From contig OY540809.1 of the NCBI GenBank assembly GCA_961205875.1, positions 24,316,267-24,380,266 on the forward strand: a stretch of DNA of 64,000 bases. Reading direction: 5' to 3'. Every line of letters begins with the position of its first letter. The stretch's first letter is position 1. Shown in pieces: positions 528 through 51,422 of this stretch. Made by a program: the position numbers and the translations under genes. The stretch comes from Sialis fuliginosa. Its lineage: Eukaryota; Arthropoda; Insecta; Megaloptera; Sialidae. The notes under the pieces were generated by a model. The model made no database searches. It was given only the letters and a program-made list of their open reading frames with translations, and was not told the origin of the DNA.

Positions 528-934
528 CAATTTTTTTATGAATCACAATTGTTAAATAAAATAAACCAACCACCTCCCTGATAAGGTACCTCCATAAATA
601 GAAGCAAATAATAGCATTTGTTTTATCCAGGTATAGTGTATTTGTTAGGTATATCTATCGTTTATGAAACTCTGCATTTTGAATGATTAGTTGAAATATC
701 CTAAATGTTTGATTTATATAGAAATATGTTGTTCTGAAATTCGATTCTAAAAGACGATACTTTTGTTCAGAAGAGATCGCTATGGAAGCTTGACAAAATC
801 GACAAAATAAACTACACCAATAGTTGAGCTTCTCAGTATATTAAACAAGACAAACCAGGATTTTGAAAATCAGATTTATTTCCGCATATTTGTTTCTCTA
901 TTTAAGCACAGTATCGTTTATCATCTTCACCACT
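528..934. other. No recognised feature
   Basis: AT-rich non-coding sequence. I see nothing beyond short homopolymer runs. Confidence 0.5.
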
Positions 935-1252
935 TTATACCATGTATCAACCGACAAAAACAACACCAATTACTTAACATGCAAACACAATATTGTTCTC
1001 TTTTTCCAACACATCCTACTCGAGTTACTCACCTGCCACTTGATGTGGAGCATCATTAAACAGAGATAGTAAATCATTTAACATATAAATGTACAATCAC
1101 CTTCTTTTTCCAACAGATCGTATTTGAGTTACTCACCTGCCACTTTGCGTGACATATTGTCAAACAAAGATGGAGTTAATCACTTACCATACGAATACAC
1201 TATTGTCGTCTCTGTTTGACAGACCGCACTTGCGGTACTCACCTGCCACTTT
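935..1252. repeat. Tandem repeat, three units of about 105 bp
   Basis: The core TACTCACCTGCCACTT recurs with start-to-start spacings of about 104 and 106 bases (near 1026, 1130 and 1236). Each is preceded by a divergent copy of a segment like 'TTCCAACA..TC', and each continues into a TCAAACA-like stretch. Units differ by many substitutions. Confidence 0.6.
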
Positions 1253-1584
1253 ATATATACGTACGTACGCAAAACTCTTCGTTCTAATGGATACATGCCG
1301 ACATGATGAATGTGGCGCACCTGGTGGCTGAAACGCGAACTAACGGCTGTCTCTCACAACCTTCATTAATGTTATTTATAAACGTCATGGGAAGAATTTC
1401 ATTTGGAAACAAATTATTTATATTTAATATCAAAGCATATGTCTCTTCGTTCTAGTAGATATCATACGTGTATATAGACAGGGTTGTTTTATCTATTAAC
1501 ATGTTAGATTCAACACAAGATGTTCTTAAGGGGCAGTAATCGTTTAAATTGTTCTATACTGTCTTATAAAAAAAAAATTTAAGA

Positions 1585-2130
1585 AAAAATAAAATCGACT
1601 TTTAAAAAACCCTAAAAATACTTGACAGTTTCTGAAGTCGGTTTTATTTTTTAATTTCTTTAAAAGTTTTTTATTGGCTCGGCACCGAATTCAATACTGT
1701 TGAATTTAATTGTTATATAAATACTTTTCATAGTTTTTAGTTTTTTTTAAGTAGATTTTATTTTTTTCTTAAAAAGTTCCATATTTTTCCCTTTTGAGTG
1801 GCGTATCTTTAAATTCCATGGTCAGATTTTGATAAAATTTATATGGGATTCTCTCGGGAGTATACTCTTTAAAAAAATTATTATTATTATGCCTGAACAT
1901 GCATAAAAAATATATGTAGCGGAATTGAGAACGCCCTCATTTTTTGAAGTCCGTTGTCAAATTCTGATAAAATTTATATGGGACATGAGTATATGTTACT
2001 ATTTCAAACAAACAAAAAATCAACCAAATTGGCGCATATTTGTCAGGGAACATACATACAAAATACATACTGACGAATTGTGAACTTATTTTTTTAAGTA
2101 GATTAAAAATATATCAAAAACTTAAATATT
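1585..2130. repeat. Interspersed repeat family F
   Basis: Starts AATCGACTTTTAAAAAACC and contains GGCGTATCTT, TCAGATTTTGATAAAATTTA and CATACATACAAAATACATA. A second copy is at 59860-60300. The inverted 'CGACTT..' and 'GAAGTCGGTTTTA' segments resemble a lepidopteran non-LTR tail, but the class is uncertain. Confidence 0.5.
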
Positions 2131-3960
2131 CCTTCGACTGGCTCTGTATTTATCATTTAACTATCTCTCTATAGCGACCAATTGCGTTTAATATAAGCAC
2201 GTGTGTGTATGTCTGAGGGATTTTTTTATTAATTAAATTTAATGTTGATCTCTGCATACATGAAATCTTACGATATTTTTAAACATAAACGACGTATTTT
2301 AAATTTATGCATGTAATATTTACTTATATTAAATTTTTTTATGTAACCATAGGCATATTAAAATCTGTTACGTGTAATATTTCTAAGATGAAAATTGGAA
2401 TAAATATATATTTATAAATATTATATTTTCTAATTACTTATAAACATGATACAAATTATAATTATCTAATAAAATAATTTTATAATATAAAAATTAATAA
2501 ACGAGTAATACTGTTCAGGAACTACTGACCAAGTTAAAATAGTCTTAGCTTTTAATATGCTAATAGGGTCGAAAAATCGTGTCCGAGGCCAGATTCTGAA
2601 CGTTCAAAACGTTATTAGTTTTCCACATGACGCGTGTTTGTCTCTATAATTTTCTTTCGTTCACGATAATTCCTGTAAAAATAAACTGATTTGATTTTTT
2701 TAAATAATTTTCATCTAAATAAGGACTTAAGACCTTTTGATTTATTGATCAACGTGAACGATTGATTTCTGTAAAAGGGCGCAAAATAATTTTTAGGCGG
2801 CGCCAAACGAAAATTTAAAAAAAGTCACTAGGAACATAATAGCGGGGGGGGGGGGAATTTTACATGATAACGGAAAAAAGTAATTCAATTGTATAGAGGT
2901 TGGGGACGGGGTTGTATAACTTAATTGTATAACTTAATTAACGATATTTTATATTAAATTATAAATTCATTGCATCCTTAATTAGTTATTTTTAAATAAT
3001 TGAAAATTAATGTATTAAATTTCTGATTATTAAAAACTGTAAAGTGACCTAATTTTCCATTGAAAAAATGAATAGATAAATTAAATGACACCCTGGATAT
3101 ATACGCTTAATTAAAAACATTTATTAAAAATAGATAGCAGAATCTTAATTTTGACTACCCCTCGATAATATTTTTCAATCACTGATTCTACTCTTTTAAT
3201 TAACCCAATATTATCAAGTTGAATTACGTTTAATGATCCTATAATTAAAATATTGACCTTATTTATCTTAATTAAATGGACATATAATTAGTTATCGTTT
3301 GACACACATTAAACTAAAATTAATCAAATACTTTCCCAATCCCTGTATTTGTTTGTTAATTGGTACAATTTAATTAACATAAATTATAGTAGAATTATAA
3401 TTAATTGTTACATTTAATCGGCTATAAATCTAAATATAATAATAAAAACTGTCATTAATAACAAATTAGGAAATGGGAGGAGAGATGGGACACTTTTGTT
3501 TTAAATAATATTTTTAACTCTCTTGCCTATTAATTTATACAATTATGATAATTATTGTTCATTGTTTTTTTTTTAAACTTTTTTCAAATAATTTTGGGGC
3601 CCTTTTTTTCTGCTATGTAGACAATAGCCTTACCCCTCTCTCTAACCTAATGTCACGTAAGGCAGTACCATATGTGATACAATTAATATGTTTTTTAACA
3701 ACATATTTCAGAATAGAAGTAAACATTCCAATAAATATGAGTTAATCGTCCAACAATGTTTTGCATTTAAGAATGTTTAACAACATTTGAATATAACCCA
3801 TTTTTCATGAACCGCCATGTAGGCAATAGTACCCCTTCAGCCCTATGAACGTTCCCTATACCTATTCGAATTCATTTGTTAAAAACTAATAAAAAAATGT
3901 TTTTTTTGTGTTTTCTACAAATAATGATATAAATAAGGAGTTATTATTATTTATTAGCTA
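2131..3960. other. AT-rich intergenic stretch
   Basis: No gene seen. It holds a run of 12 G (2844-2855) and, near 2573-2600, GAAAAATCGTGTCCGA, the reverse complement of the end of family C. Confidence 0.5.
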
Positions 3961-3962
3961 CT

Positions 3963-4262
3963 AGCTGTTATCCGTGAAGTCGTTCGCGTGGAAGTTAGGT
4001 TAGGTAGGAGCTGTCAGACATAAAACCCATGAATAAAATCGAGAATTAGGTATTATTAGGTAATACAGATTTCTATAATTGTGATAATAAATAAAACTTT
4101 TAATTTAAAGAAATCGGGATACAAAGTAGCCTATGTCCTTCCTCCGGTTGCAGTCTATCTCCTTTTATGTAATTTCATCAAGATCGGTTCAGTGGTTTAG
4201 TCGTGAAAAGTTAATAAAACAAAGAGACAGACACTTTTTCGCATTTGTAATATTAGTATGGA
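3963..4262 (+). repeat. R1 family copy
   Basis: Starts CTGTTATCCGTGAAGTCGTT, as at 8335, and ends GCATTTGTAATATTAGTATG. It lacks part of the middle found in the 8335 copy. Confidence 0.6.
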
Positions 4263-4312
4263 TTTATCATTTAGGTATAAAGAAAACATCAGCTAAGTGA
4301 TTGTACAGTGCT

Positions 4313-4606
4313 TCCTCGTGGTAAATTCATCAAAAAGAGTTTTTAATAATTTTGAAATGGTCCTCATACCAGACCCAACCCGCCAACAAGTTTCATTAAT
4401 ATCGATTCAGTGGTTCATGAGTTATGCGTGTGACAAGGATTCAGGGAAAAACAGACACACAAACAAATAGACAGACACGGAACGAAAAATGTTTGTCTTG
4501 ACCTGAAACGGAAAGATCAAGTTAAAATTTTGATATCGGAGAACAATTTTTTTTATTTTGAAACGATCACGAAGTTTCTCGTATCTTCAATATGGCGAGG
4601 AAGCGA
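4313..4606 (+). repeat. R2 family copy, internally deleted
   Basis: Begins GCTTCCTCGTGGTAAATTCA and ends GCGAGGAAGC, so the termini are short inverted repeats. It contains GTTATGCGTGTGACAAGGAT and GGAACGAAAAATGTTTGTCT, shared with copies at 8640-9230, 40393-41107 and 57330-57565. Confidence 0.65.
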
Positions 4607-5394
4607 TATTTTAATATATTATATATTCCTAAAACCACCCCTGTATAAAACTTTAAAATAATCGTGTTTTCATAAATGGATAAAGTTTTCTGACACTTAC
4701 GAAGCTTTTCATTGTAAAGCTAAAATAATAATTTCCACAGTCTTTTCAAAGGTGGCATGAATACAAACATTATTCACAATAAATATCGTTATCTCTCTTA
4801 CTTTCTCCCCCTCTCTCGCTCACTCTCTAAACTAAAGCCACGCTTCTTTTGGCTTTTGAATTATTTATTTTGTCGCAAAGAAATTTCGAATACATTATTA
4901 AAGTTCTATTGTAGCGAAGTTAAGGAAAATATAAATTTGTTCATGGCCCTTTTATATGTCTATTATAGGCCTTTTTGTAGTTGTCTAAAACATTTAGTAC
5001 TTACTTGTTAACTTCCCAACAGGAAGTTATTGTTATCGATCCGAAAATCAAAATAAAATATTTCAACATATTTTCATATTTCAAGGTCATTAAAGTATAT
5101 TAACACTATTATGTTTCTGTGTGTATGTACGTACATGCGTACGTACGTCTCATTTTTTTGTACGAAATCTCGCAAATAAAAAATGCTATTGACTTCGTTA
5201 GGGTGCCAATCGAAGCGTCTTGACGTGAATATGATCTAAAAGAAAAGATTTTTCGAAATTCTACTTCTACGGCGATAAAAGGGAGTGTAAAAGTTTGTAT
5301 TGGTAAAAAAAAAATTTATCTGATTTACTTGAAACTTAGCATTAAATATTCTATAATACAAATAATGAAACATTTCAGATTTTTTTTGTTATAC
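4607..5394. other. Intergenic, no gene
   Basis: AT-rich. It contains a short alternating GTACGTAC run near 5125-5147. Probably partly more of the reversed repeat that follows. Confidence 0.4.
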
Positions 5395-5790
5395 GTGTCT
5401 AAACAGCCATTGAAGGCTTGAAAACAACTATTAAAATTTGAATTTTAAATACTACTAAATGCGTCTACTAATTCATGTTGCCTTGGAAACAAATGCAATT
5501 AAATAAAAATTGTCAAATTAGTTATACAAGTCTTGAGGCTTCCGCGGTGATCTTGATATAGATCTTGGCTTCTGGGTGTAAGCCGCGTCGGTTTGGTCGT
5601 GTTATCGGCCAACCTTTTCTCACACATTGAAGATGTCCACTGCAATGTGTGACGAAACGTTGGCCGATAACACGACCAAACCGACGCGGCTTACACCCAG
5701 AAGCCAAGATCCATGTCAGATTAGTTATTCTAAAAACGTGTGTTATATTATTAACATTAGGATATTAGAAAACTAATATTATAATACAAA
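5395..5790 (-). repeat. Family C copy (reversed), interrupted by the 5526-5715 insertion
   Basis: Reverse complement of 12195-12350: ACAGCCATTGAAGG, CCTTGGAAACAAATGCAATT, TGTCAAATTAG, then after the insertion ACGTGTGTTATATTATTA. The uninterrupted copy at 12195-12250 shows the empty site. Confidence 0.65.
5526..5715. mobile_element. 190-bp fold-back insertion with 53-bp perfect arms and 13-bp target duplication
   Basis: Arms 5561-5613 and 5659-5711 are exact reverse complements (outer GATCTTGGCTTCTGGG, inner TATCGGCCAAC). Inside, CACACATTG (5621) pairs with CAATGTGTG (5643). TCAAATTAGTTAT (5513-5525) and TCAGATTAGTTAT (5716-5728) flank the insert and are read as a target-site duplication. The empty site is present near 12220. 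Confidence 0.75.
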
Positions 5791-6477
5791 GGTGAGTTTT
5801 ATTTGTGACAAATTCCATTAAAATTTTTCATTTACATATTAAAAAAATTATTCACATTAACTATATGGAAACAATAAATAATCAGTATTCAAGTATTGAT
5901 AGTCATACCATGTTCGGAAGTAGTTTGTGTGGACCTCAATGGTCGAACTCACGGCTTGCTAAATTTTTTGTTCTGTTGGCAATATTTTAAAATATGACTG
6001 ATGTTATTTGACTTTTTACTCTTTGAACATTTTGGCAACCACTGTACTAAATAATTACTTTTAATTACCGGTATATTTTCAGTTTGAAATGGATTCAAAC
6101 GAGAAATAATTAGCTTTGATATAGTTTGATAATAACGATTAATTCGCTAAAACACAAATTCCAATTGTAGCGACATATCGAATAAATAACTATGATTGTG
6201 GGTACTATACCCCTACTATCATTCTTCTCATACAGCACAGAAAATACGGGGTGATTTATATACTAGTAACACGATAAAATGTGTTTGTACTAGCTTTTTA
6301 AACTGCTGTCCATTTTTCATTGTTGTATCGTTGCAAAAAATTGTGTTTGACTACTATTTATTAAAATCAAGATTAATATTTGTTGCGTCATTTTTTTTTA
6401 CCTTAAAATAAACGAAATAACCATAGTTTTGTTTTTAAATGGATGCAAATATTTTTGAATTTTAAAATTATTTTCTA
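5791..6477. other. Intergenic, no gene
   Basis: AT-rich sequence with short ORFs of no recognisable content. Confidence 0.45.
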
Positions 6478-7353
6478 CTTGCTGTGCTCGCGGCTTCGCT
6501 CGCGTGGACTACGGAATTACTGTTTAGGATTTTTGAAAAATATAATTGAATTACGTAAGTACAAATACGATTAGATATTATTGTAATAATAACTAATCAA
6601 CACCTAAATTACATAACAAAAACGAATTAGAACAAAAAGTACAAGTAATTTTTGTTGTGTTTAAATTTAAAAGTTAATTATTAAAAATAAAATAAACAAT
6701 TGACGATCAAATGACAACACCCGAGCTGAAGGGATCCGAATGGCGGCCGAGTGCATGTGAATCTTTCCCTCTGCCCCGCTACTACGCGACACACTTCTTT
6801 AGTTCACGTGTTATTAATAATATTTTATCGTATATTACTTATTTAAAGTTATTTCCTAAACTAAAAGATTGAATTGGAAGCTGTAAAGGAGAAATTATAT
6901 CTACATTTAGTACTAATGACGATGAAATTATTTATTTCGATAATGATTAATTATTAAGTCCACGTAAACAGAACTCTAACATTTTTAATTTTCTTTGTAA
7001 CATAAAAACAGTCATTGTGGCTTAAATATAAATGTTAGATATATATGATATCGTGGACTTTATATTAGATATTTTGTTTCTACACAATTATTTACTACAA
7101 TATAATGTTTGACGATTTAGGTAGTGTATTGCAAAAGAGCGAGCAGGCGGCAAACTTTTGTCTATTATTATCGTCTCTGCTAATTCCTTATGTTACCTAA
7201 CGTAACAGAATATATCCTATAACCTGACCAGAAAACATATCTATGAATTAAAAAAACACGTAAATCGAATAAGTGGTTCTCGAGTTATAAGCGCACTAAC
7301 GGACAGACAGATAGAGAGAGAGACGTTGAGCTTTATATATATTAAGGATGATT
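6478..7353 (+). repeat. R3 family, longest copy in the window
   Basis: Begins TTGCTGTGCTCGCGGCTTCG followed by CTCGCGTGGACTACGG. The middle has ACTAATCAACACCTAAATTA, and the right end has AAGCGCACTAACGGACAGAC followed by TTTATATATATTAAGG. Related copies: 11160-11978 (reversed), 39020-39330, 42440-42870, 57265-57330 and 59077-59853 (reversed). No ORF. The constant left end and simple-repeat right end suggest a non-autonomous retroelement or Helitron-like unit; I cannot decide between them. Confidence 0.65.
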
Positions 7354-11978: not shown

Positions 11979-12194
11979 ATTGATATAAAACTAAAATATC
12001 GGTATGGAGAACCATACATGACTTCCATGTTCTATCTATCTTTTTAAATAATTTTTAAATATATATATTTTTAAATATTTTATTTATATAACCTACTACT
12101 ATGAATATACATATCGTAATACATTAAAAAACATATATACTTACAACGGTTACAGCTCTTTTTGCCATTTGTATATAAATATTAGTTTTCTAAT

Positions 12195-12775
12195 GTCAAA
12201 AACATAAAACACATTCGTAGAAAAACTAATTTGACAATTTGAATTTAGTTGCATTTGTTTCCAAGGAAACATGAATTAATGACATATTAGTATTTAAAAT
12301 TCAAATTTTAAGTGTGTTTTTCACCCCTTTAATGGCTGTTTAGGCACGTACAAATAATAAATGTCCCTTAGATTCAATTGAACTGCAAATGTACCAAATC
12401 TTATCAAAATTAGTGAGATAATACTCGCAATATTCACTTTTTAGACGAAAAAAGTTACAAAATTGCGAATATTTCCAAAACCCCTAATCCGATTAGCACC
12501 AAAATCAATAGGTCTGGAGTACTCACTGAGACAAACATTTTCTCCAAAAAGAATTCAGATCGGTGCATTTTTACAGTAGTTATCGTGAACGAAAGAAAAT
12601 TCTACATCCGCACAGACACACAGACACACAGACACACGCACAGCCGCCATGCGGAAATTAACTTTTCTTTACGTTTTGAAGTTAGTACAATCAGAATTTG
12701 TCATTTTCTCGGATACGATTTTTCGATGGTATTACAATACTTCCATTTCCTTCGGAACATGGAAGTAAAATTCTT
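12195..12775 (+). repeat. Family C copy (uninterrupted)
   Basis: Left part matches 5395-5790 reversed. Right part matches 10388-10690, with a CA/GACA tract at 12613-12640 and the closing ATACGATTTTTCGATGG. It provides the empty site for the 5526-5715 insertion. Confidence 0.65.
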
Positions 12776-14410: not shown

Positions 14411-17400
14411 GTAAGTGTAATTGCACATATATATTATAGATACAGTGTGTCCTATATTACGTAACATTTACATAAATGCTGGGGGTTACCCGATAGGGTA
14501 ACGATACTTTACCGTAACGAAATAACGCTATTTTTACATTACTACGGTATAGTACTTGCACTAATAACCACTATTTCTGGTAATTTTTTTAAGTATATCA
14601 TTTATGACATAAAAATATTAAAAATGACTTTTGGATCATTTTTTGAACAAAAAATACTAAATATTTTTTAAATTTTCTTTTTTTTTCTTCTTCAAGTTTT
14701 TCTTGTCTTTTTTAATTAAACAATAAATTTCTTTCTTTCTTGGCTTCCTCTTTTACGTAATTCAGGCGGTGGATCCATAAATATAAAAATCCAAAAGCAG
14801 TTTTAAATTCTACCTTAAAAAACCGCAAATAAATATAAACTAATTGAAAAAAAATCTTTACTACCAGAATCTTATTCCAGCAGTTAATTATACATGTAGG
14901 AATGATTTCTGGGACACATTGTATACTTATTTAATTATGGTTGTTGGTTCTTGACGTGTTCAGATCTTGAGGTGGTATTATCTTTATTATTATGATGCAT
15001 TTGATAGCTATGATGACGCACTCGTTTATTTCAACAATAATATTTGTAATTATTAAAGAATAACATTCTAATTTCTTAGTTTTTTCGATGTCGACTGTAC
15101 CATTGCAGTTGTATTTTTAATAGATTTTAAATATTTGTGACGTTTCAGTATCAAAAAAAATGTATATATTTTTAATTTTGTTATTTGATAATTTAATTTT
15201 TCAATCCATTTACGGGTTTAATAATTTTGACATTATTTGATGATTAATTAGTTTTGGACTAATAGCGTTAATTCAAAATTTAATTCCTAACACAAAATTA
15301 TTATTATTTCAATGATGATTTATAAATTAAAGGGGACATATTCAAATTCTAGTAATTAGTGTAATAAACTATATTTCTATAGTGCATAGTGTAAGAATGC
15401 TTTTTTCTAGGATTGCGAAATTTTGTACTATCGAAATTACGTAGTTTACACCAATCTCGCGTTAATTTTGAATTACCCTTAGCTTAAAAGTGCTTCACAC
15501 GAGACGAGATGAAAGTGAAGTAACTATAATCTTGTCTCGGTCTCAAGAGCTTTTTTTTCTAAAAAAATTTTTTTATCTCTATTGATTCTTATTAAAAATT
15601 TTATATTTTACTCTGACAAAAAAAATACTTTTCTGTTGTTTCTACTTTAAAAGATGATTTCGGATGTTTCCGGCATTTTGAAACCAAATCCGTTCCCAAA
15701 TTGCTTCAGCATGCCAGGTTTTTGAGATATCCTTATTTAAAAATCCCAAAAATGACGATTTTGGCAATGTTTAAGAATTTATTACAAAGTAGGTAATTTT
15801 TATCTAAAGTTTTTGTTCACGGTAAGAAATAATACTATCTTTCCTTTTTAAAATGAATTTTTACTTTTTACTGTACGATTTTTTTTCACCGAAATATACT
15901 AGTTTAATTGTAATATTTATATGTAGTAAAGTCCATTGTGTCACTTGTGTCTACTCTATTAATAATAATATCATATTATAAATTCAAATTAACATATCTC
16001 AGCGAAAAAAAATCAGACAGTAAAAAGTAAAAATTCATTTTAAAGAGGAAAAACAGCACTATTTCTTAAAACATTAGAAAAAATTACCTACTTCGTGCCA
16101 AAATCGTCATTTTTAGCATATTTAGGTTATGTTATCTCAAAAACTTGACGTGACGGAACAATTTGGGAAACGGATTCGGTTTCAGCACGCCAAAAAACTC
16201 CAAAATTCCCTATTCAAGTAGAAACAACAAAATAATTTCGACCTGTGTTCTTAATTGAATGATTAATGATTAGTTTTTTTTAATTATTGATATTGCCAGT
16301 CTAGCCTATTATATTTATAATTTTAAACGATATCATCTCATTAAAGTTCATCGTTTCGATCTATAATTGCAATCATCGAAACAAATAATATTACAGTAAT
16401 CAAATAAATAATATCAAAACTATTGAATAAAAATGATTAACGGATATTATTTACACAATACTTTAATTAAATCTATTTGTACAACAAAACATTAATCAAT
16501 ATAACCACAAATTGAATACGTTTAGAAACAATATCCATAGCTAATAACAAAATACAACCCATATCAAGGAAAATATTTTGACAAATAATATCCACATCAG
16601 GTGCAGAAGAAGAAAAAAACTAGTACAACCGCGGGCAAGAAAGGTGACGCGGCGAAAACTTCTAGCAGGAAATCATCATCGGCAGCGTCTGGAGCTGACA
16701 GCACCGCCGCTGCCCCTGCTCCGGAGGCGGTGGTCCCGGAGCCGGCTCCAGTTGGAGAGACGGAGAGCGGTGATAATCAGCAAGTCGAACAGAAAGTAGA
16801 AAATACGGAAACACCACAAGTGCAAGGTAAACGTTTATTATTGTAATATTTATATATAAAAGTACTGTTCTTTTAAGTCAAGACGGTTCTTATCTTGAAT
16901 TAATTGTTATTTTAATAATTTACTAAAGGTAATTATTATTATTATTGTATTATGCGAAATTAAACGTTGTTTATTTGAGGAATCTGACAATTAAAGGACG
17001 TACATTTTATATGTAAATATTTTCTCTTTGCAAATGTTGAATAGTTGGAATTCGTTACACAGGCCAACATAATTTTGCTGTTTCTACTTAAATAGGTGTT
17101 TTCAAGAGGTTTTGGCATGCTGAAACCGAATTCATTACCCAAATTGCTTCATCACGTCATGTTTTTGAGATTCGGTTTCAACACGCCGAAAATCTCCGAA
17201 ATTACCTATTCAAGTAGAGATAAAGTATTTTTTTGTGGTACTTTTGTATATTAAATAAAATTTTCTCGTTTAATAAAAAATATTTTTTTCAAAAATATTC
17301 TTGCCGTGTGATAATTTGTGAAAGCAAAATTTTTCAAAATTTCCGCTTTTTTCGATCGAATTTTATCAAAACATAATTTGAGTTGGTGATGGAACAGCGG

Positions 17401-20400
17401 GTGGGGGGGTGTTATAAGAAAAATATTTTAAAAAGTGATGTGTGCCTAACTCACATATAGTCCAGTAAATGAAGCAATTTGATGGGAAATTTTCCGGAAC
17501 AGCAATTTTATGGTTGATTCTTATAGATTTTGAGCCGCTGAACACGAAAAAAATAACGCGCCCGCGTGAGGAGTGGGGCTTCACCCCTAAAAATGGGGTT
17601 AAAGGGTGAACATCAAGTTTTTTTCCCGTTTTTTCGATTTATTTCAAAAACTAAATCGACGACGGGGTTATATTATGGTTGATATTTGTAGCTGATACTC
17701 AAATGAATCAATTGAGACCAGTTAGATAAAATTTAACCAAAAAACACCCCTTCCAGAGGGTGAAAAATCCGTAAAATTGTTAATTTTCGGTCCTCATCAG
17801 TAAAAATTGAATAACTCTGGGGCACATCATCGCACAGACTCGTATATTAGCTTAAATTCTTCCTAAAACTCCAAATAACTGAGATCAACCATAATATAGC
17901 CAAATATGAATAGATTTACCAACGATATTAGCCAATATTTAAGGGTGTGTCACAAAATATTAAAAAAAAATTGTGTTGCACTAAAAACCAAGTAAAAAAA
18001 TCAGAAATCAATATTTTTTTACCAAATTGCACTTGTAGCCTCTATTTATACCTACGATCAAGGCTGCATAAGAAACGAAGTTTTTCATGCACGTAAATGC
18101 ATTTAAAATGCATATCAAAGTGCATCAAACCGCATTTTGTAGTAAAACAAATTAAAAAAGGTATTTTCGAGAAATAAACTCTAAACATTTATTAAATTTG
18201 CGTATATTAATTCATAACAACCTAACACTTGTATATTCTCTCTTATCAACTCATATAAAAATTCACAAAATGCATTTTTCGTAATAAAATGTAAGAAAAC
18301 GTAATAAATAGCTATAGTACGACTGGCATACCAGTCGTACTATAGCTATTTATTACTATTTTACATATAAAATAGTGATAAACTTTTTGATTGGAATATG
18401 CCACATTCAATGGTCATAGATAGAGTCAAAAGGGAGATTTTTAGATAGGAAGCTACATGAAAATCCATACAGGGCACAAAATGGTGGCTATCAAAGATGT
18501 CCCCCACCGGTGTTATCTAAGTGACTGTATCTCAGGTCGTAGTTATCCGATTTCAATTTTCTTTTGTTTATTGTAAAGTTCTTATTGATAAGATTTTTTT
18601 TGATATTATTTATTTTTCTCTAAGTGTTGAGGGTTGCCCACAATTTAAAAAAATATTTTATTCAGCAATAAAGTTCGAAAAAAGTGAATTTTTTAGATTT
18701 TCGAAAGTTGTAGAGAACCCTCAATGTTTAGAGAACAATAAATATTATCCATAAAAATCTTCTCAATAAGAACTTTATAATAAACAAAAGAAAATTGAAA
18801 TCAGGTAACTAGGAGCTAAGATACAGCCAATTTGATAACACCTGTGGGGACCACCTTGTAAATGCATTTATGTGCATGAAAAACTTTTTTTCTTATGCAG
18901 CCTTGATCGTAGGTATAAATAGAAGCTACAAATGCAATTTGGTAAAAAAATATTGATTCCTGAATTTTTTACTTGATTTTTAGTGCAACACAAATTTTTT
19001 TAAATATTTTGTGACACACCGTAAAATATCGGCTAATATCGTTGGTAAATCTATTCATATTTGTCTATATTATGTTTGATCTCAGTTATTTGGAGTTTTA
19101 GGAAGAATTTAAGCCAATATACGAGTCTGTGCGATGATGTGCCCCAGAGTTATTCAATTTTTACTGATGGGGACCGAAAATTAACAATTTTACGGATTTT
19201 TCACCCTCTGGAAGGGGTGTTTTTTGGTTAAATTTTATCTAACTGGTCTCAATTGATTCATTTGAGTATCAGCTACAAATATCAACCATAATATAACCCC
19301 GTCGTCGATTTAGTTTTTGAAATAAATCGAAAAAACGAGAAAAAAACTTGATGTTCACCCTTTAACCCCATTTTTAGGGGTGAAGCCCCACTCCTCACGC
19401 GGGCGCGTTATTTTTTCGTGTTCAGCGGCTCAAAATCTATAAGAATCAACCATAAAATTGCTGTTCCGGAGAATTTCCCATTTTGAGCATTTTTTCTGCT
19501 TCATTGGCTGGACTAATAAGCGCACGGTTGTTATATTAATAATCATCAAACGTATAATTTTAACACTAAAACCGTATAGCTTGACAGCAACGTAAACTGT
19601 CTTGTATCTTTCTTTTATACTCATCTCTCTCTCACGCATAACCGACGTAAAGACCTGTACGCATGCGCATTTATCCATCTTTCTCTTCTACATCTACTCA
19701 CGCATCTGCACACTCTCATTAGCGTTTCATTTTTAAAACGTGTCATATATTAAAATCTGTCGAGGTCATTCCAATTCACTTATACCTTTCTTTTATACAT
19801 TTACTCATCTCTCTCTCACGTATAACCGACGTAAAGACCTGTACGCATGCGCATTTATCCATCTTTCTCTTATACATCTACTCATGCATCTGCACACTCT
19901 CATTAGCGTTTCATTTTTAAAACGTGTCATATATTAAAATCTGTCGAAGTCATTCCAGTTCGCTAGCTCGCTAAAGAATTTTCACTTCAAAATGGATTAC
20001 TTCCATCACCATGTTAATAAAATCAAACATACATAATATATTCTCCTTATTTATCAGTTCTTTTCGGCAATAAATCAAATCGATTAATAAATAGAACAAT
20101 AACTAATGACTGATATTAATTAGCAGACGGTGAACAGCCAGTACCAACCGAAGGCCAAGAACAACCCAGTGAACATGATGGACAAATACCTTATCACGAT
20201 CAAATGGAACCTTACCAAGCTCCTCCACAGGCCACAAAAAAAGACATACAATTGTTACAAGATATTGACGACAGAAAGTTATTGGAACTCCAAGAGGTAG
20301 GGAAAGATTTTTTTTATTATTTGCTGTGAACGTGATATTAAAACCCCTTAAGTTTTTCTATCGTATCATCAATACTTCTTATGTGCATCTAGTGTTTTTC

Positions 20401-23400
20401 GTTTTTTATTTAACCCGGTATTAGACGTATGTGTAATGTGTAGGTACTATGGGCTTCAGGAGTCGGCTGCCACCGTAAAGGTCAGAATCGCTTATAACAG
20501 ATTCGATAATATTAAGACAAATATCATCGGTTATCTTTTTCTAGGCTACAGCTTGTATAGTTACATCATTTTAAATAAAAACACAAATTTAAATATTATA
20601 TATAAATATAGTTTAAGTATACATTGTAGCATGAAAGTTGACCGGTTTGGCAATGTAAATACAATGCTTATTCTGGTCATCTTTCATGTTACAAACTATA
20701 GTTTATAAACCGATTTGACTTTCCTATTTAAAGTGAATAATTCATAATTTCATTTTGATCGTTCATTATATCTAGATTTACATAATTTTTAACTCAGACT
20801 GCACCGGCTATACATTATTAATAGAGATTGGAAAAATAGTTGTTATTTTCAATGAAATAGTTACTAGTTGAATTTTTTTTCGGAAAATAGTTGATAAATA
20901 GTTTTTTTTACGATTTAATAATAATTAGTGCAAACGAAGCAGTAAAAAGTGTCGCAAATAATTTTAAAATAGTTGGAAGGGTAGTTGCAAATAGTTTATT
21001 TCAAATTGTGTTCAATCAAACCAGTTTTCTGAAAACGGCGGAGATATGTAATACAAATTACAATAAATGCATTTTTACGCAATAATTGAAAAACTATTTT
21101 TCCAATCTCTAATTATTATTAAGTTCTGTTGAAAAACCTACATACATTGAAAATATCAGTAAGGTAACACATGGCTGCTCCCGGGTTAAAATTCTTACAT
21201 ACACACGCACATATATTGTCTCTATCTTTTGCAACGGTTGCAAAATCTTATGCGGTTTTTTGATAAATAATTCATTCTGTGAGCACACTCGAAAATGATA
21301 TTTTTGCGGCAAGGGTGGAGAAAGAAGATTGAAGATGGTGATTTCAAGCGAATAATTTTCATTTATTTTAAGATGTGTTGTACATCAAGATTAAATGTTT
21401 ATTTTTAAATAAATTTTAAGATAATATACCCAATTTTAATTGTGCTGCCATGTGGATGATTAATTTTTGTATAAAACTTTTTTACTACTATATATTTCAA
21501 ATACCTAATTGATTAGTATGTTTTGTTAATAAAAATATTTTGTTTTAGGCATTTTACCTATTTGATTTAAACCAAGATGGAATTATCGATAAAGATGATT
21601 TATATAATACTTTCCAATCGCTAGGACAACCAAATATGCCTGAGGAAGAAATTTTACAAATGTTGAAAGAGGTTTGTATCAAAAAAACTACACGAAGAAA
21701 AATGCAACTCAATTTTTAGAGAAAATTACAATTCTTAAAAAAAAAATTTACTATATCCGTATTACAATAATTTACAGATTTATTATAAAAATTATAATCT
21801 TTTATTTAACAATACAATAAGTCTGTAAATATTACATTTACGGATAGTCAATTTTTATATAGAAATTGTAATGTTTCCTATAATTTAATTTCCATTTTTT
21901 ATGATTAGGAGTAAACTAAAGAGAAATTTCTGAATTTTCCATAATTTTTTACTCGAAAATGACTAATTTTTAAAAATAATCGCAAGAGGTAAAAAGTACT
22001 TAGATTTAATAAAAAATTCTCGCAATTTTTTGTTTAATATGTAATTTAATTTTTTTTTCATGCTTTCAGAATTTTTTCTTTATAAAAAAGTTACATAAAA
22101 ATTTAACAATAAATTTGAAAAACAATTTTTTGAACTTTTTCAATTTTGTGATTTTTCTTAAAAGTTTTCGAGTAAAAAACTATGGTTTGCTTCATATCAT
22201 AAAAAATTGATATTTTCAGAAAAAATGTTTCAAACAAAAGTTTTTTTTTAATTTTATTTTTTAATTAGGAATCTGCAACAAAAAATATAGGTATTGATTT
22301 TAAAAAGAAAAGCTGAACCTGAAAACCTATCGAAGTGACCTTTCTAAGGTCAACCCATAATGTCAATATTTAGCCCCCTCAAAACCATGAATCATTTGTT
22401 TGAAACATTTTTTCTGAAAATTGGTTATTTTGGAAATAACCCACTTAAAAAAAAACACCCGGTATACAAAACAAAAAACATAAAAAAGTACATTAATTCC
22501 CTCCAACATTAACCAAAATAATAATCGAATTAGGCGAAAGAAAAAAAAGCGCACGATAAAATAAACTAACAAGATTCAGTATAATCCAGTGCGGACTGTA
22601 ATTGGTGGCATTATTCAGTTACAAAACATTTCAGGCACCGAATCCACTGGACTTTGATGCATTCGTTGTTTTATTGGGATACAAAACAATCGAGCTAGAT
22701 CCAGAGGAAACTCTACTCGAAGCTCTGTCCCAATGGGACTATGATTCATCTGGACTCATTTCCGAAGAGAGGTTAGTATTTATACACATTCACACACATA
22801 CACACACACACACGCACATATTTGCACGTTTACGCAGTTGGTACGCTTGTATGTGCGTTACGTTAAACTTCGTTTAGAGTCCCTAAGGAAAAAAGCTGTG
22901 GCGCGCATCATTATTTTTACGTACTGATATTAAATAAATCTTGTATTTAAGATAAAAATCGAAGCTATTTTCTATGCCAGTGATGTTCAATAGGTTTTCT
23001 TTGAGTTTCATTTTTACTACAAAAAAAATATATTTTAATTAAAAAAGTGTTTTTTTCGGAATACAAAATTCAAGTTCTTTTTATCCCAATAGAACAATAG
23101 GTTCCTTGGCTATTAAATTTATCAGTAATTCAAGTCTTGACAACCCCCCCAATTTATATATTTTTTAATGGGCTACTTTGACATATCATTAAATTGACTC
23201 TGAAGTCAGAGATAAAAAGCATGCAGTTACTTTGATATTTTATTTTTTTAATATTTATTTTTAAATTACATAGGTAAAATATAAGGGTTAAATAAAATAA
23301 ATAAAAATAAATCAATGGTTTTAATCAATACGATTGATGTTTTTATTTATTAAACATTTTACTTAAATTTTAATAACACCTTTAATTTTATGACACTTTG

Positions 23401-31889: not shown

Positions 31890-32571
31890 GTGTGTGTGAA
31901 GTTAGCCCAGCACTTTTGGAAAATCAAAAAACTAAAAATTGTACTAGATTGTGCTAGACTTGTGCTAACTTGTGCCATCAACCGTTTTCCAAAATTTTCG
32001 ATTCTTCAAAAGTGCTGGGCTGATTTTTTTTTCGTTTTTATTTTTTTTCTCGAACACCATGCCGAATTTCGAAAAATGCTTTACGGCACAAGTCAGCACA
32101 AATTGAGCACAATCTAGCACAATTTTTAGATTTTCGATTCTTCAAAAGTGCTGGGCTGATTTTTTTTTTCGTTTTTATTTTTTTTCTCGAACACCATGCC
32201 GAATTTCGAAAAATGCTTTACGGCACAATTCAGCACAATCTAGCACAATTCTAAGATTTTCGATTCTTCAAAAGTGCTGGGCTGATTTTTTTTTTCGTTT
32301 TTATTTTTTTTCTCGAACACCATACTGAATTTCGAAAAATGCTTTACGGCACAAGTCATCACAAATTGAGCACAATCTAGCACAATTTTTAGATTTTCGA
32401 TTCTTCAAAAGTGCTGGGCTGATTTTTTTTTTCGTTTTTATTTTTTTTCTCGAACACCATACCGAATTTCGAAAAATGCTTTACGGCACAAGTCAGCACA
32501 AATTGAGCACAATCTAGCACAATTTTTAGTTTTTTGATTTTCCAAAAGTGCTGGGCTAACTTCACACACAC
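31890..32571. mobile_element. 682-bp terminal-inverted-repeat element with 9-bp target duplication and internal tandem repeats
   Basis: ATAAGATAC at 31881-31889 is repeated exactly at 32572-32580. The ends are perfect inverted repeats for at least 50 bases, starting GTGTGTGTGAAGTTAGCCCA. Between them are four tandem units of about 136, 126, 137 and 137 bp (marker ATTCTTCAAAAGTGCTGGGC at 32001, 32137, 32263, 32400), then a final partial one. A 9-bp duplication is known for Mutator-like and related fold-back DNA transposons, so I infer a non-autonomous member. No transposase ORF. Confidence 0.85.
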
Positions 32572-47155: not shown

Positions 47156-47265
47156 AAATTCAAAAAAAATCGATTATTTCCTAAAAAAAAAAAAATTGGG
47201 GAGAAAAATGAACTAAACATAAATAGTCCAGGCAACGTAGAATTTTTTTACTGGTGTAAAATTAG

Positions 47266-50200
47266 GAAAAATGTATGAGGTGCCAAATTTAAACAGTGAT
47301 TAGAACATGTCCAGATGTATATTTCCTGAAAACTCCCTAGCAAAATTTGCTCCGGAACACCCTCAACCAAGGGCCCAAAGTTTTGTTTTACAAGGATTTT
47401 GTAAACACTCTGTATCTAAGGAACGGAATGTTCAATCAACCCCGTCTTTCGCATTTTAAACAGATAATTAAATTATCTACAACCTTTTTTATTATTATTT
47501 TAACCAAAAATAATTGTATACCTTTCAAAATGGTGGTCAAACTAAAAATTTTACTTTAAAAATGTAAAATTTTGAGTTCGACAGCCTTTTTGATAGGTAT
47601 AAAGTTATTTATGATCAAGAATGTCTTATAATTGATTGTAGTACATTTAATTGTCTTTTAAAAAAAATAAAAATGGGGTAAATCGGACTTTTAGTTCACT
47701 AGATATAGTCATTTTACGAAAGCATTGCAATATCTAAATACGTTACGGTAAATATGTTCATACATACTTGGATTCGAGTCTTGTGTTTGGCGATATGGTA
47801 CACTGAAATTACTAATCTCATAAACTTCGGAAAGGTCTGAAAATGTTCTTCATAAAGTCTAGTATTAAGATTTATTTTAAATTAGTCCAATATTAGGTTT
47901 TGTTTGTATTTATTCTTCCAGTACGTAATAAAGGAATATGTTAAATGTATAAAGGTACATAAAAATTACATTTTTACATTACAATAAAATTTTTAAGTTT
48001 AGGATAATGTATGAGGCATAAAATTATTAGAGCAATTAGAAATTAACGAGATGTATATTTCGTGAAAACTCCCAAAAAAAGTAGGGCCCGGAACACCCTC
48101 AACCAAGGGTCTAAAGTTTTGTTTAACAAGGATTTTGTAAACACACTATATCTAATGAACGGAATGTTCGATCTATCCCATCATTCGCATTTCAAACAGA
48201 TAATAAAATTTTCTACAACCTTTTTTATTATTATTTTAATCAAAAATAATTGTAAACCTTTCAAAATGACGGTCAAACTAAAAATTATAATTTTAAAATG
48301 ATTTTTTTTTAGATAGGCAGCCATTTTGAATAACATAAAATCATTTTTGTTAAAACAGTCTTACTGTATATTATTGCACATTTAATTATCTATCCAAAAC
48401 ATGAAATATGGTGTTAATCTGATTTTCAGATCATTAGTTATAGTAATTTTACGAAACCATTATAATATCTTACATACTTGTGTTTGTGTCTTGTGTTTGA
48501 CGACATGGTACACCGAAATTATTAACCTCATAAACTTCGAAAAAGTCTAAAAATGTTCTTTATAAGGTCTAGTATTAAGATTTTTTTAAATTAGCTCAAT
48601 AATAGGTTTTGTTCGTATTTATTCTTCCAGTACGTAATATAGGAAGATGTTAAATGTATAAGTACATAAATATTGCTATTTTACATTACAATAAAATTTT
48701 GAATTTTAGGATAATGTATGAGGTACTAAATTTAGCCAGTGGTTAAAACATACCAAGATGTGTATTTCCTGAAAACTCCCTTGCAAAGTTTACCCCGGAA
48801 GACCCTCAACGAAGAGCCTAAAGTTTTTTTTTTATAAGGATTTTGTAAACACACTATATCTAATGAACGGAATGTTCAATCTACCCCGTCTTTCGCATTT
48901 CAAACAGATAATAAAATTGTCTACAACTTATTTTATTATTATTTTAATCGAACATAATTGTATACCTTACAAAATAACGGCCAAACAAAAAAAATTACTT
49001 TAAAATAATGTGTTTTTGAGTTCGAGAGCATTTTTGATAGGTAAATAGTTATTTATGAACATAAATGTATCATAATTGATTGTAGTGCATTAAATTGTCT
49101 CTCCGAAAAAATAAAAATGGGGTTAATCGAACTCTTAGTTCTCTAGATATATTCTTTCTACGAAACCATTATTTTATCTTATATACTTGTGTATATGTCT
49201 CATATTTGACAACATGGTACACTGAAATTATCAAACTCATAAACATAGGAAATATCAGAAAATGTTCTTCATAGAGTCTAGTGTCAAGATTTATTTTAAA
49301 TTAGTTGAATAATTTTAAATTTTTATGTACCTATAAATGTTGTATATTTCTAATTTCCATTTGAAAGAATAAATGCAATCAAAACAATAAGATAAAATAA
49401 TGGTTTCGTAGAAAGAATATATCTAGTGAACTAAGAGTTCGATTAACCACATTTTTAATTTTTCGGAGAGACAATTTAATGCACTACAATCAATTATGAC
49501 ACATTTATGTTCATAAATAACTGTTTACCTATCAAAAATGCTCTCGAACTCAAAAACACATTATTTTTAAAGTAATTTTTTTTTGTTTGGCCGTTATTTT
49601 GTAAGGTATACAATTATGTTCGATTAAAATAATAAAAAAATAAGTTGTAGACAATTTTATTATCTGTTTGAAATGCGAAAGACGGGGTAGATTGAACATT
49701 CCGTTCATTAGATATAGTGTGTTTACAAAATCCTTATAAAAAAAAAACTTTAGGCTCTTCGTTGAGGGTCTTCCGGGGTAAACTTTGCAAGGGAGTTTTC
49801 AGGAAATACACATCTTGGTATGTTTTAACCACTGGCTAAATTTAGTACCTCATACATTATCCTAAAATTCAAAATTTTATTGTAATGTAAAATAGCAATA
49901 TTTATGTACTTATACATTTAACATCTTCCTATATTACGTACTGGAAGAATAAATACGAACAAAACCTATTATTGAGCTAATTTAAAAAAATCTTAATACT
50001 AGACCTTATAAAGAACATTTTTAGACTTTTTCGAAGTTTATGAGGTTAATAATTTCGGTGTACCATGTCGTCAAACACAAGACACAAACACAAGTATGTA
50101 AGATATTATAATGGTTTCGTAAAATTACTATAACTAATGATCTGAAAATCAGATTAACACCATATTTCATGTTTTGGATAGATAATTAAATGTGCAATAA

Positions 50201-51306
50201 TATACAGTAAGACTGTTTTAACAAAAATGATTTTATGTTATTCAAAATGGCTGCCTATCTAAAAAAAAATCATTTTAAAATTATAATTTTTAGTTTGACC
50301 GTCATTTTGAAAGGTTTACAATTATTTTTGATTAAAATAATAATAAAAAAGGTTGTAGAAAATTTTATTATCTGTTTGAAATGCGAATGATGGGATAGAT
50401 CGAACATTCCGTTCATTAGATATAGTGTGTTTACAAAATCCTTGTTAAACAAAACTTTAGGCCCTTGGTTGAGGGTGTTCCGGGCCCTACTTTTTTTGGG
50501 AGTTTTCACGAAATATACATCTCGTTAATTTCTAATTGCTCTAATAATTTTATGCCTCATACATTATCCTAAACTTAAAAATTTTATTGTAATGTAAAAA
50601 TGTAATTTTTATGTACCTTTATACATTTAACATATTCCTTTATTACGTACTGGAAGAATAAATACAAACAAAACCTAATATTGGACTAATTTAAAATAAA
50701 TCTTAATACTAGACTTTATGAAGAACATTTTCAGACCTTTCCGAAGATTATGAGATTAGTAATTTCAGTGTACCATATCGCCAAACACAAGACTCGAATC
50801 CAAGTATGTATGAACATATTTACCGTAACGTATTTAGATATTGCAATGCTTTCGTAAAATGACTATATCTAGTGAACTAAAAGTCCGATTTACCCCATTT
50901 TTATTTTTTTTAAAAGACAATTAAATGTACTACAATCAATTATAAGACATTCTTGATCATAAATAACTTTATACCTATCAAAAAGGCTGTCGAACTCAAA
51001 ATTTTACATTTTTAAAGTAAAATTTTTAGTTTGACCACCATTTTGAAAGGTATACAATTATTTTTGGTTAAAATAATAATAAAAAAGGTTGTAGATAATT
51101 TAATTATCTGTTTAAAATGCGAAAGACGGGGTTGATTGAACATTCCGTTCCTTAGATACAGAGTGTTTACAAAATCCTTGTAAAACAAAACTTTGGGCCC
51201 TTGGTTGAGGGTGTTCCGGAGCAAATTTTGCTAGGGAGTTTTCAGGAAATATACATCTGGACATGTTCTAATCACTGTTTAAATTTGGCACCTCATACAT
51301 TTTCCT
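47266..51306. repeat. 4.04-kb near-perfect palindrome, each arm an array of about 0.72-kb units
   Basis: Arms about 47266-49182 and 49387-51306 (about 1.92 kb each) around a 204-base spacer. Paired points such as 47280/51291, 47347/51224 and 48062/50509 all sum to 98571, so there are no net indels over the outer 1.2 kb; only a handful of substitutions were noticed. Within each arm the block beginning ATGTATGAGG recurs at 47271, 48007 and 48714 (736 and 707 bases apart), each followed by CTGAAAACTCCC-, CCCTCAAC- and ATTATCTACAAC-type words. No gene; the matching short ORFs in both arms are a by-product of the symmetry. Confidence 0.9.
49183..49386. repeat. Spacer (loop) of the large palindrome
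   Basis: Continues the repeat unit for a while (GACAACATGGTACACTGAAA, AATGTTCTTCATAGAGTCTA) before reaching sequence without a mirror copy. The array is thus cut within its third unit on the left side only. Confidence 0.75.
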
Positions 51307-51335
51307 TGTATTTTTTCCTTTATTTCCTGGGCTAA

Positions 51336-51422
51336 AATTATAGATAAGAACATTTTCTATAAATTGATTCTAAAAAAAATTTTTCTACTGCGCACCGTTT
51401 CAAAAATAATTCGAAAAATTCA
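51336..51422. repeat. Direct repeat flanking the large palindrome (right copy)
   Basis: AAAATTATAGATAAGAACAT and ACCGTTTCAAAAATAATTCG followed by AAAAATTCAA match 47091-47155 in the same orientation. Confidence 0.6.

Follow-up and report, generated by a model that had tools for sequence, protein, structure and literature searches.

A long palindrome of Sialis fuliginosa as a probable copy of a fold-back-type DNA transposon family with recombining arms

What kind of locus is a palindrome of about 4 kb whose two arms are almost identical, although each arm is built of diverged tandem units? The question is raised by a stretch of 64,000 nucleotides (the window) from the megalopteran insect Sialis fuliginosa (assembly GCA_961205875.1, contig OY540809.1, positions 24,316,267 to 24,380,266 of the forward strand). 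A sequence-only reading had considered a hairpin-RNA locus, a fold-back transposon or an assembly artefact, with arms either copied recently in inverted orientation or kept alike by gene conversion. Comparison with the rest of the genome indicates that the palindrome is very probably one copy of a family of non-autonomous, cut-and-paste, fold-back-type DNA transposons with recombining arms. Shared ends, matching target-site duplications, empty sites and many copies are the reasons for regarding it as a mobile fold-back-like family. They tell against an error of assembly and against a hairpin gene that exists only once.

A dispersed family with defined ends

The inverted-repeat search of the window returned a repeat of 1750 nt at 99% (47268-49017 / 49554-51303), which is continued towards the centre by 196 nt at 95% (48987-49182 / 49387-49582). 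Aligned over the full 1915 bases, the arms are 99.48% identical with gaps counted and differ by 0.42% in substitutions. Inside each arm, tandem units are spaced by 736 and 708 bases (0.71-0.74 kb), and the units of one arm are about 78-79% alike in gapped alignment, so that they diverge far more from one another than the arms do; in both respects the earlier description of the palindrome stands. The left array overruns its arm by 131 bases, and the loop is therefore partly made of unit sequence. The coordinates proposed earlier, 47266..51306, fit the palindrome but leave out the outermost bases of the element, about 40 on the left and 30 on the right (Table 1). The arms themselves are ruled out as the transposon ends, since homology between copies extends 44 and 31 bases beyond them.

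The search space was the window's own assembly (392 Mb in 20 contigs, labelled C1 and so on). A search with the stretch described in the sequence-only reading gave at least 115 matches, a lower bound because 40 of the 559 first candidates were scored. Full-length matches at 97-99% identity over the whole palindrome lie on C1, C4, C5, C6, C8, C9 and C12. Because the identical structure recurs elsewhere at this level of identity, the palindrome is not a product of chance, and the copies likewise rule out a one-off inverted duplication at the window locus. Among the loci examined are 14 long copies (3.38-4.12 kb), of which ten measure 4.06-4.12 kb and four have internal deletions.

The ends of the element follow the consensus TAGYCCAGG. 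A genome-wide pattern search found 154 left ends (at most one mismatch) and 150 right ends (at most two mismatches), and reversed-pattern controls found none. Pairing was carried out with 99 left and 100 right ends among those listed, and it gave 22 end pairs. Nine of them span 266-615 bases, four span 3.38-3.93 kb and eight 4.06-4.12 kb; the remaining pair, 19 kb apart, is probably accidental. The flanking three bases are identical in 18 of the 20 recognised end pairs among loci L001-L051. Matching triplets accompany 12 of the 14 long copies, and all four of the short internal-deletion derivatives considered (391, 421, 524 and 583 bases) also have them. The duplicated triplets include AAA, TAA, TAT, GCT, AAG, ATA, CTA, TTA, TAC and AAC.

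Empty sites add to this evidence. When the flanks of the 14 long copies were joined and used for comparison, two paralogues of the L008 site (L018 and L023) were seen to hold a single AAG and no element. Less clean empty sites correspond to L004, with a single TAT in the window at 12475-11994 and a single TAC in L021; the joined flanks of L005 match L034 weakly, and those of the other 11 copies gave no match spanning the junction. Of the 39 loci examined around arm matches, 36 bear at least one end of the family. Three loci weigh against mobility as a uniform account. The mismatching end pairs are L010 and L037, of which the latter is probably a false pairing, and L007, outside the 20 recognised pairs, also lacks a duplication, its first base being altered.

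An assembly artefact, in which one arm would be a duplicated or mis-joined contig piece, is suggested by the near identity of the arms at the window locus. It is extremely improbable, as the same structure occurs in 14 long copies, 12 of them with their own matching 3-base duplication, and the full copies bear private variants. The family thus shows two marks of a cut-and-paste transposon, definite ends that carry terminal inverted repeats and a duplication of constant length, together with the long inverted repeats, tandem units and many copies of a fold-back element. In fold-back elements the long arms usually extend to the element ends; here the arms stop 43-44 and 31 bases short of them, and these outer stretches are unpaired save for nine terminal bases. 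On this evidence, the fold-back transposon that the sequence-only reading had listed as an alternative becomes the preferred account.

The geometry also invites another explanation, namely a dedicated long-hairpin RNA locus in which the palindrome would be transcribed through and diced into small interfering RNAs that silence a target gene. Near-perfect arms and a 204-base loop would indeed yield a duplex RNA of about 1.9 kb if read through, and long inverted-repeat geometry is shared with the Drosophila long hairpin RNA loci (PMC10317233, PMC10292708). The palindrome differs from those loci in being a dispersed mobile family with target duplications, whose ends accompany nearly all of the arm-match loci, and in having no recognised host target gene among the 40 of 559 first candidates scored, with no gene annotation at hand. 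Moreover, the open-frame list contains no frame of at least 100 residues (ATG, GTG or TTG start) inside the element, and the window has no Rfam match at the gathering threshold. Nothing read in the DNA marks the palindrome as a dedicated hairpin-RNA gene, and this explanation is considered very unlikely.

Hairpins formed by inverted transposon copies are a known trigger of silencing. It has accordingly to be considered that insertions of the family are read through from host promoters and yield double-stranded RNA that silences the family itself. This follows from the anatomy; nothing seen points to a dedicated transcript (no promoter scan was made). Such an account is less improbable than a dedicated locus and still rather doubtful, and double-stranded RNA is better viewed as a possible by-product than as the explanation of the locus.

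Table 1. Positions of the element, its parts and related features (window coordinates unless a contig is named)
Feature	Position	Strand	Remark
Whole putative mobile element, 4111 bases, TAGTCCAGG ... CCTGGGCTA	47224..51334	+	Homology among copies stops here, give or take a few bases
Target-site duplication AAA, left copy	47221..47223	.	Flank comparison
Target-site duplication AAA, right copy	51335..51337	.	Flank comparison
Left 9-base terminal inverted repeat TAGTCCAGG	47224..47232	+	
Right 9-base terminal inverted repeat, TAGCCCAGG on minus strand	51326..51334	-	8/9 identical to left
Outer left segment, unpaired, outside long arms	47233..47267	+	End-to-arm distance 43-44 bases in 11/11 copies
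Left palindrome arm, 1915 bases	47268..49182	+	
Left arm unit 1, 736 bases	47268..48003	+	Portion retained in many shorter copies
Left arm unit 2, 708 bases	48004..48711	+	
Left arm unit 3, truncated	48712..49313	+	Final 131 bases inside loop; direct-repeat match to 49313
Loop, 204 bases	49183..49386	.	Flipped relative to the ends in 5/13 full-loop copies (L001-L013)
Right palindrome arm, 1917 bases	49387..51303	-	
Outer right segment, unpaired	51304..51325	+	Arm-to-end distance 31 bases in 11/11 copies
Dispersed repeat outside the element	11994..12475	-	Relative on C4 hosts copy L004; paralogous empty site
L052, 5917-base element	C1:32994700-33003700, element at 757-6673		1525-residue ATG-started frame, duplication TAT

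Two loci of the family carry further sequence. At L016 (C14:6051609-6059935), a family copy is split by about 3.3 kb with eight element bases on both sides, and the interruption looks like an insertion of another transposon with an 8-base duplication. In the first 775 bases of L010, an open frame with a Sina-type RING and zinc finger (PF21361, PF21362) adjoins the family copy.

Exchange between the arms and inversion of the loop

Eleven copies retain both arms, and their 22 arms were compared. If the palindrome were passively inherited, the arms of a copy would differ at least as much as the copies do. Within copies, arm divergence is 0.50% on average (range 0.05-1.07%), and between copies it is 1.77% for left against left, 1.83% for right against right and 1.79% for left against right arms. 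No alignment column separates the left arms from the right arms, and the own partner is closer than any other arm in nine of the 11 copies. Among the variants of the 22 arms, 82 are confined to one copy and present in both of its arms, 88 are found in just one arm, and 39 are common to several copies. None of the 82 is present in the single arms L011L, L012L and L013R. In the arm tree, partners are sisters in nine of the 11 copies, and the pairing is strongly supported in seven of the nine.

In L009 (p=0.0006, with none in the first 853 columns and 18 in the remainder) and in L002 (p=0.003), the differences between partner arms fall in clusters, and both results survive correction for 11 tests. 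Weaker clustering that fails this correction was found in L014 (p=0.008), L008 (0.011), L010 (0.04), L003 (p=0.03, two differences) and L004 (p=0.04, one difference), and none was found in L001, L005, L006 and L007 (p 0.10-0.55). Where it is seen, the patchiness suggests conversion tracts instead of a single clean re-copying. Of the 88 one-arm variants, 26 lie close to the loop, compared with 10 of the 82 that occur in both arms (p=0.008 by Fisher's test, 0.003 by stratified permutation and 0.04 by the Kolmogorov–Smirnov test). This excess is not relied on, as the bin was picked post hoc and the p-value of a rank test was 0.48.

Reciprocal exchange between inverted repeats is expected to invert the segment between them, which makes loop orientation informative. 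It was counted in the 13 copies (L001-L013) in which the 204-base loop is complete and an end is recognised, leaving out L014, which has lost most of its loop, and the older L022, which has a full inverted loop but just one recognised end. Relative to the ends, the loop has the window's orientation in eight copies and the opposite one in L004, L005, L006, L008 and L011. On the arm tree, this distribution requires four changes, or at least two after branches with less than 95% bootstrap support are collapsed. Loop divergence is 3.1% over 14 loops, L022 among them. The tree indicates two or more inversions of the loop by exchange; a limited literature search found no report of loop inversion in fold-back-like elements.

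Taken together, the low divergence within copies against that between copies, the both-arm variants and the loop inversions indicate that the arms of most full copies are made alike again within the copy by repeated exchange (conversion). In this respect, gene conversion, one of the two options of the sequence-only reading, is borne out. The other option, that the array was copied here recently in inverted orientation, disagrees with the same divergences and with the arm boundaries that the long copies have in common.

A related alternative is that each copy re-made its palindrome by inverted duplication of one array, with no exchange at all. Arms of one copy would then likewise be closest to each other, and one-armed copies do exist, such as L015, which consists of a left end and one arm. 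Against this stand the common arm boundaries, with the same distances to the ends in all 11 copies and a 204-base loop in ten of them, and the patchy arm differences of L009 and L002. Inverted loops could arise only by exchange or by duplications that independently ended at exactly one and the same base. Additionally, L015 is 4.4-5.0% away from all arms, and of the 82 both-arm variants it has two, which are shared with L009. Since the other single arms have none, neither they nor L015 can be the one-armed parent of any copy. Independent re-making is hence regarded as highly improbable.

Several observations speak against repeated exchange as an account of every copy. In L006 the two distances are equal (0.26%), and L010 truly departs from the pattern, with arms 1.07% apart and 0.97% from relatives; in the arm tree L003 is not resolved and the arms of L010 are not paired. 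Because of the two variants found in L015, the number truly confined to one copy among the arms examined is at least 80. Furthermore, the calls of loop orientation hinge on correct assembly across arms of 1.9 kb.

Relatives and a candidate mobiliser

Which transposase could move a family without a protein gene? At L036, a right-end fragment of the palindrome family (663 bases, about 92% alike) is fused to a 325-residue open frame that has no significant match in Pfam, NCBIfam or PDB. Used as a genome query, this frame found 11 equal-scoring places in a 1551-residue open frame at 42% identity, and these led to the element L052 (Table 1). Its ends read TAGCCCAGTCATATTAGG; the first eight right-end bases are common with the palindrome family (TAGCCCAG), and at the left end seven of the first eight match. 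The two are also alike in a 3-base duplication of no fixed sequence and in layout, which consists of a short end repeat, an unpaired stretch and a long inner repeat. In L052 the inner inverted repeat is single (543 bases, 99%), set back from the ends and without a tandem array. Ten further copies of L052 have the same ends and the matching duplications ACA, ATT, TGT, TAG, TAA, CTA, TTA, TTA, CTG and TAC. As the 11 places score identically and all have matching duplications, L052 looks very recently active.

From these likenesses, L052 is a relative that is likely to mobilise the palindrome family. Some findings count against this role. No intact element joining palindrome-family ends to a transposase was found in the insect's own genome, and L036 is a lone fragment that could owe its junction to chance. 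The likeness of L052 is short, with 9/11 matching positions at each end, and longer DNA matches reach E 0.07 at best. The end match is one position short of the Repbase rule for non-autonomous elements, by which positions 1-11 should match a classified member with one mismatch allowed; L052 served here in place of such a member.

The nature of the L052 protein was approached in several ways. It has no Pfam or PDB match, also when searched against PDB as a profile. By eye, its C-terminus appears to follow the motif order of PIN/XPG nucleases. Pieces of L052 homologues gave Pfam matches below the cut-off, including NYN, NYN_YacP and PIN_4 together with unrelated families, and hhalign placed L052 co-linear with FEN1 at a non-significant probability of 0.6%.

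Other transposases were sought near the ends. A scan of 77 of 146 PF13359 (PIF/Harbinger), 46 of 100 PF03184 (pogo) and 2 of 2 PF02992 (CACTA) sites, against 99 listed left and 65 exact right ends of the 154 and 150, found one site within 12 kb of these 164 ends. This PF13359 site (1 of 77) lies on the outer side, outside the family element, and the three domains were rejected as partners within this sample, from which a partner could have escaped. In a masked all-against-all comparison of L001-L051, aimed at shared internal sequence, the best 70 matches lay in the flanks, as far as positions were checked. As a separate observation, C14 at about 2-8 Mb is crowded with many listed PF13359 and PF03184 domain matches.

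Fold-back elements are best known in the Mutator and P groups, and those of the FB/Mutator type make 9-base target duplications, so that the 3-base duplications of the palindrome family speak against that type. PIF/Harbinger (PHIS) elements were recognised by a duplication of TWA, ANT, CWG, TNA or AT, or by none, and the family triplets (AAA, GCT, AAG, AAC and others) do not follow this rule. In Galileo, the terminal inverted repeats extend to the element ends, whereas the arms of the palindrome family lie 44 and 31 bases inside them and its loop occurs in both orientations. Galileo, a P-superfamily element of Drosophila, otherwise offers close parallels in the passages of PMC3573991 devoted to it: a fold-back structure, long inverted repeats able to hold tandem repeats, many non-autonomous copies, and 98-100% identity between the terminal inverted repeats of one copy, for which recombination and conversion were proposed. 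Its duplications of 7 bases (PMC3573991), in place of 3, speak against Galileo and the P superfamily.

Tetris/DAIBAM of the Drosophila virilis group provides another comparison. PMC4079207 describes a non-autonomous fold-back element with tandem units in the terminal inverted repeats and a miniature inverted-repeat transposable element relative with common ends, and a transposase-encoding element was likewise not found. Its units are about 220 bases long, against the 708-736-base units of the palindrome family, and long satellite-like arrays of its unit are reported as well (PMC4079207).

The group formed by the palindrome family and L052 is, on balance and tentatively, AcademX-like. One passage of PMC10045372 describes duplications of 3 or 4 bases for AcademX and links them to its nuclease; the 3-base duplication observed here lies within this range, and the PIN/XPG-like motifs in L052 would agree with it. 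The XPG kinship of the L052 protein is statistically unsupported, and AcademX was compared by description only. The label is tentative because the nuclease matches of L052 are non-significant and the duplication length comes from that single passage. In a limited literature search, no fold-back family in an Academ-like group was found.

Proposed origin, significance and other features of the window

A plausible course of events would begin with an autonomous ancestor with subterminal inverted repeats of 0.6-0.7 kb, which may have lost its protein gene. Its inner repeat would have been amplified in tandem and would have come to occupy both sides. The gene-less product may still be moved in trans by the transposase of the group that contains L052. 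Subsequently, the 1.9-kb arms could pair, as a hairpin, as a cruciform or between sister chromatids, leading to conversion and loop flipping. The diverged tandem units within an arm are not homogenised in the way the arms are; that units about 20% apart are spared fits a process that requires near-perfect pairing.

In effect, what looked like a single hairpin locus proves to belong to a fold-back family of many copies, whose duplications are 3 bases long and whose arms are set back from the ends, and which is apparently placed outside the Mutator and P groups. Conversion and flipping of palindrome arms are usually studied at a few sex-chromosome palindromes. With common ends and private variants, both processes become countable here, and each copy might, with some reservation, be regarded as a natural replicated recorder of recombination between long palindrome arms in a eukaryotic genome, in which conversion and flipping recur and direct repeats are spared. 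If homogenisation is tied to transposition, with a hairpin or a gap under repair as the intermediate, insertions could be dated by the divergence of their arms, as retrotransposons are by their pairs of long terminal repeats; if it is not, the copies measure palindrome conversion in place.

Elsewhere in the window, a K/A/S/P-rich open frame lies at 16589-16846, and the stretch 22602-22877 resembles myosin regulatory light chain and calmodulin (best E 4e-5). Neither has a Pfam match above the cut-off, and the two may possibly be exons of an EF-hand gene. Two minor tandem arrays are also present: a 184-base unit is repeated 1.9 times at 96% at 19618-19961, and a 137-base unit is repeated 4.2 times at 31987-32557, an array that can alternatively be described by a 263-base unit at 95%.

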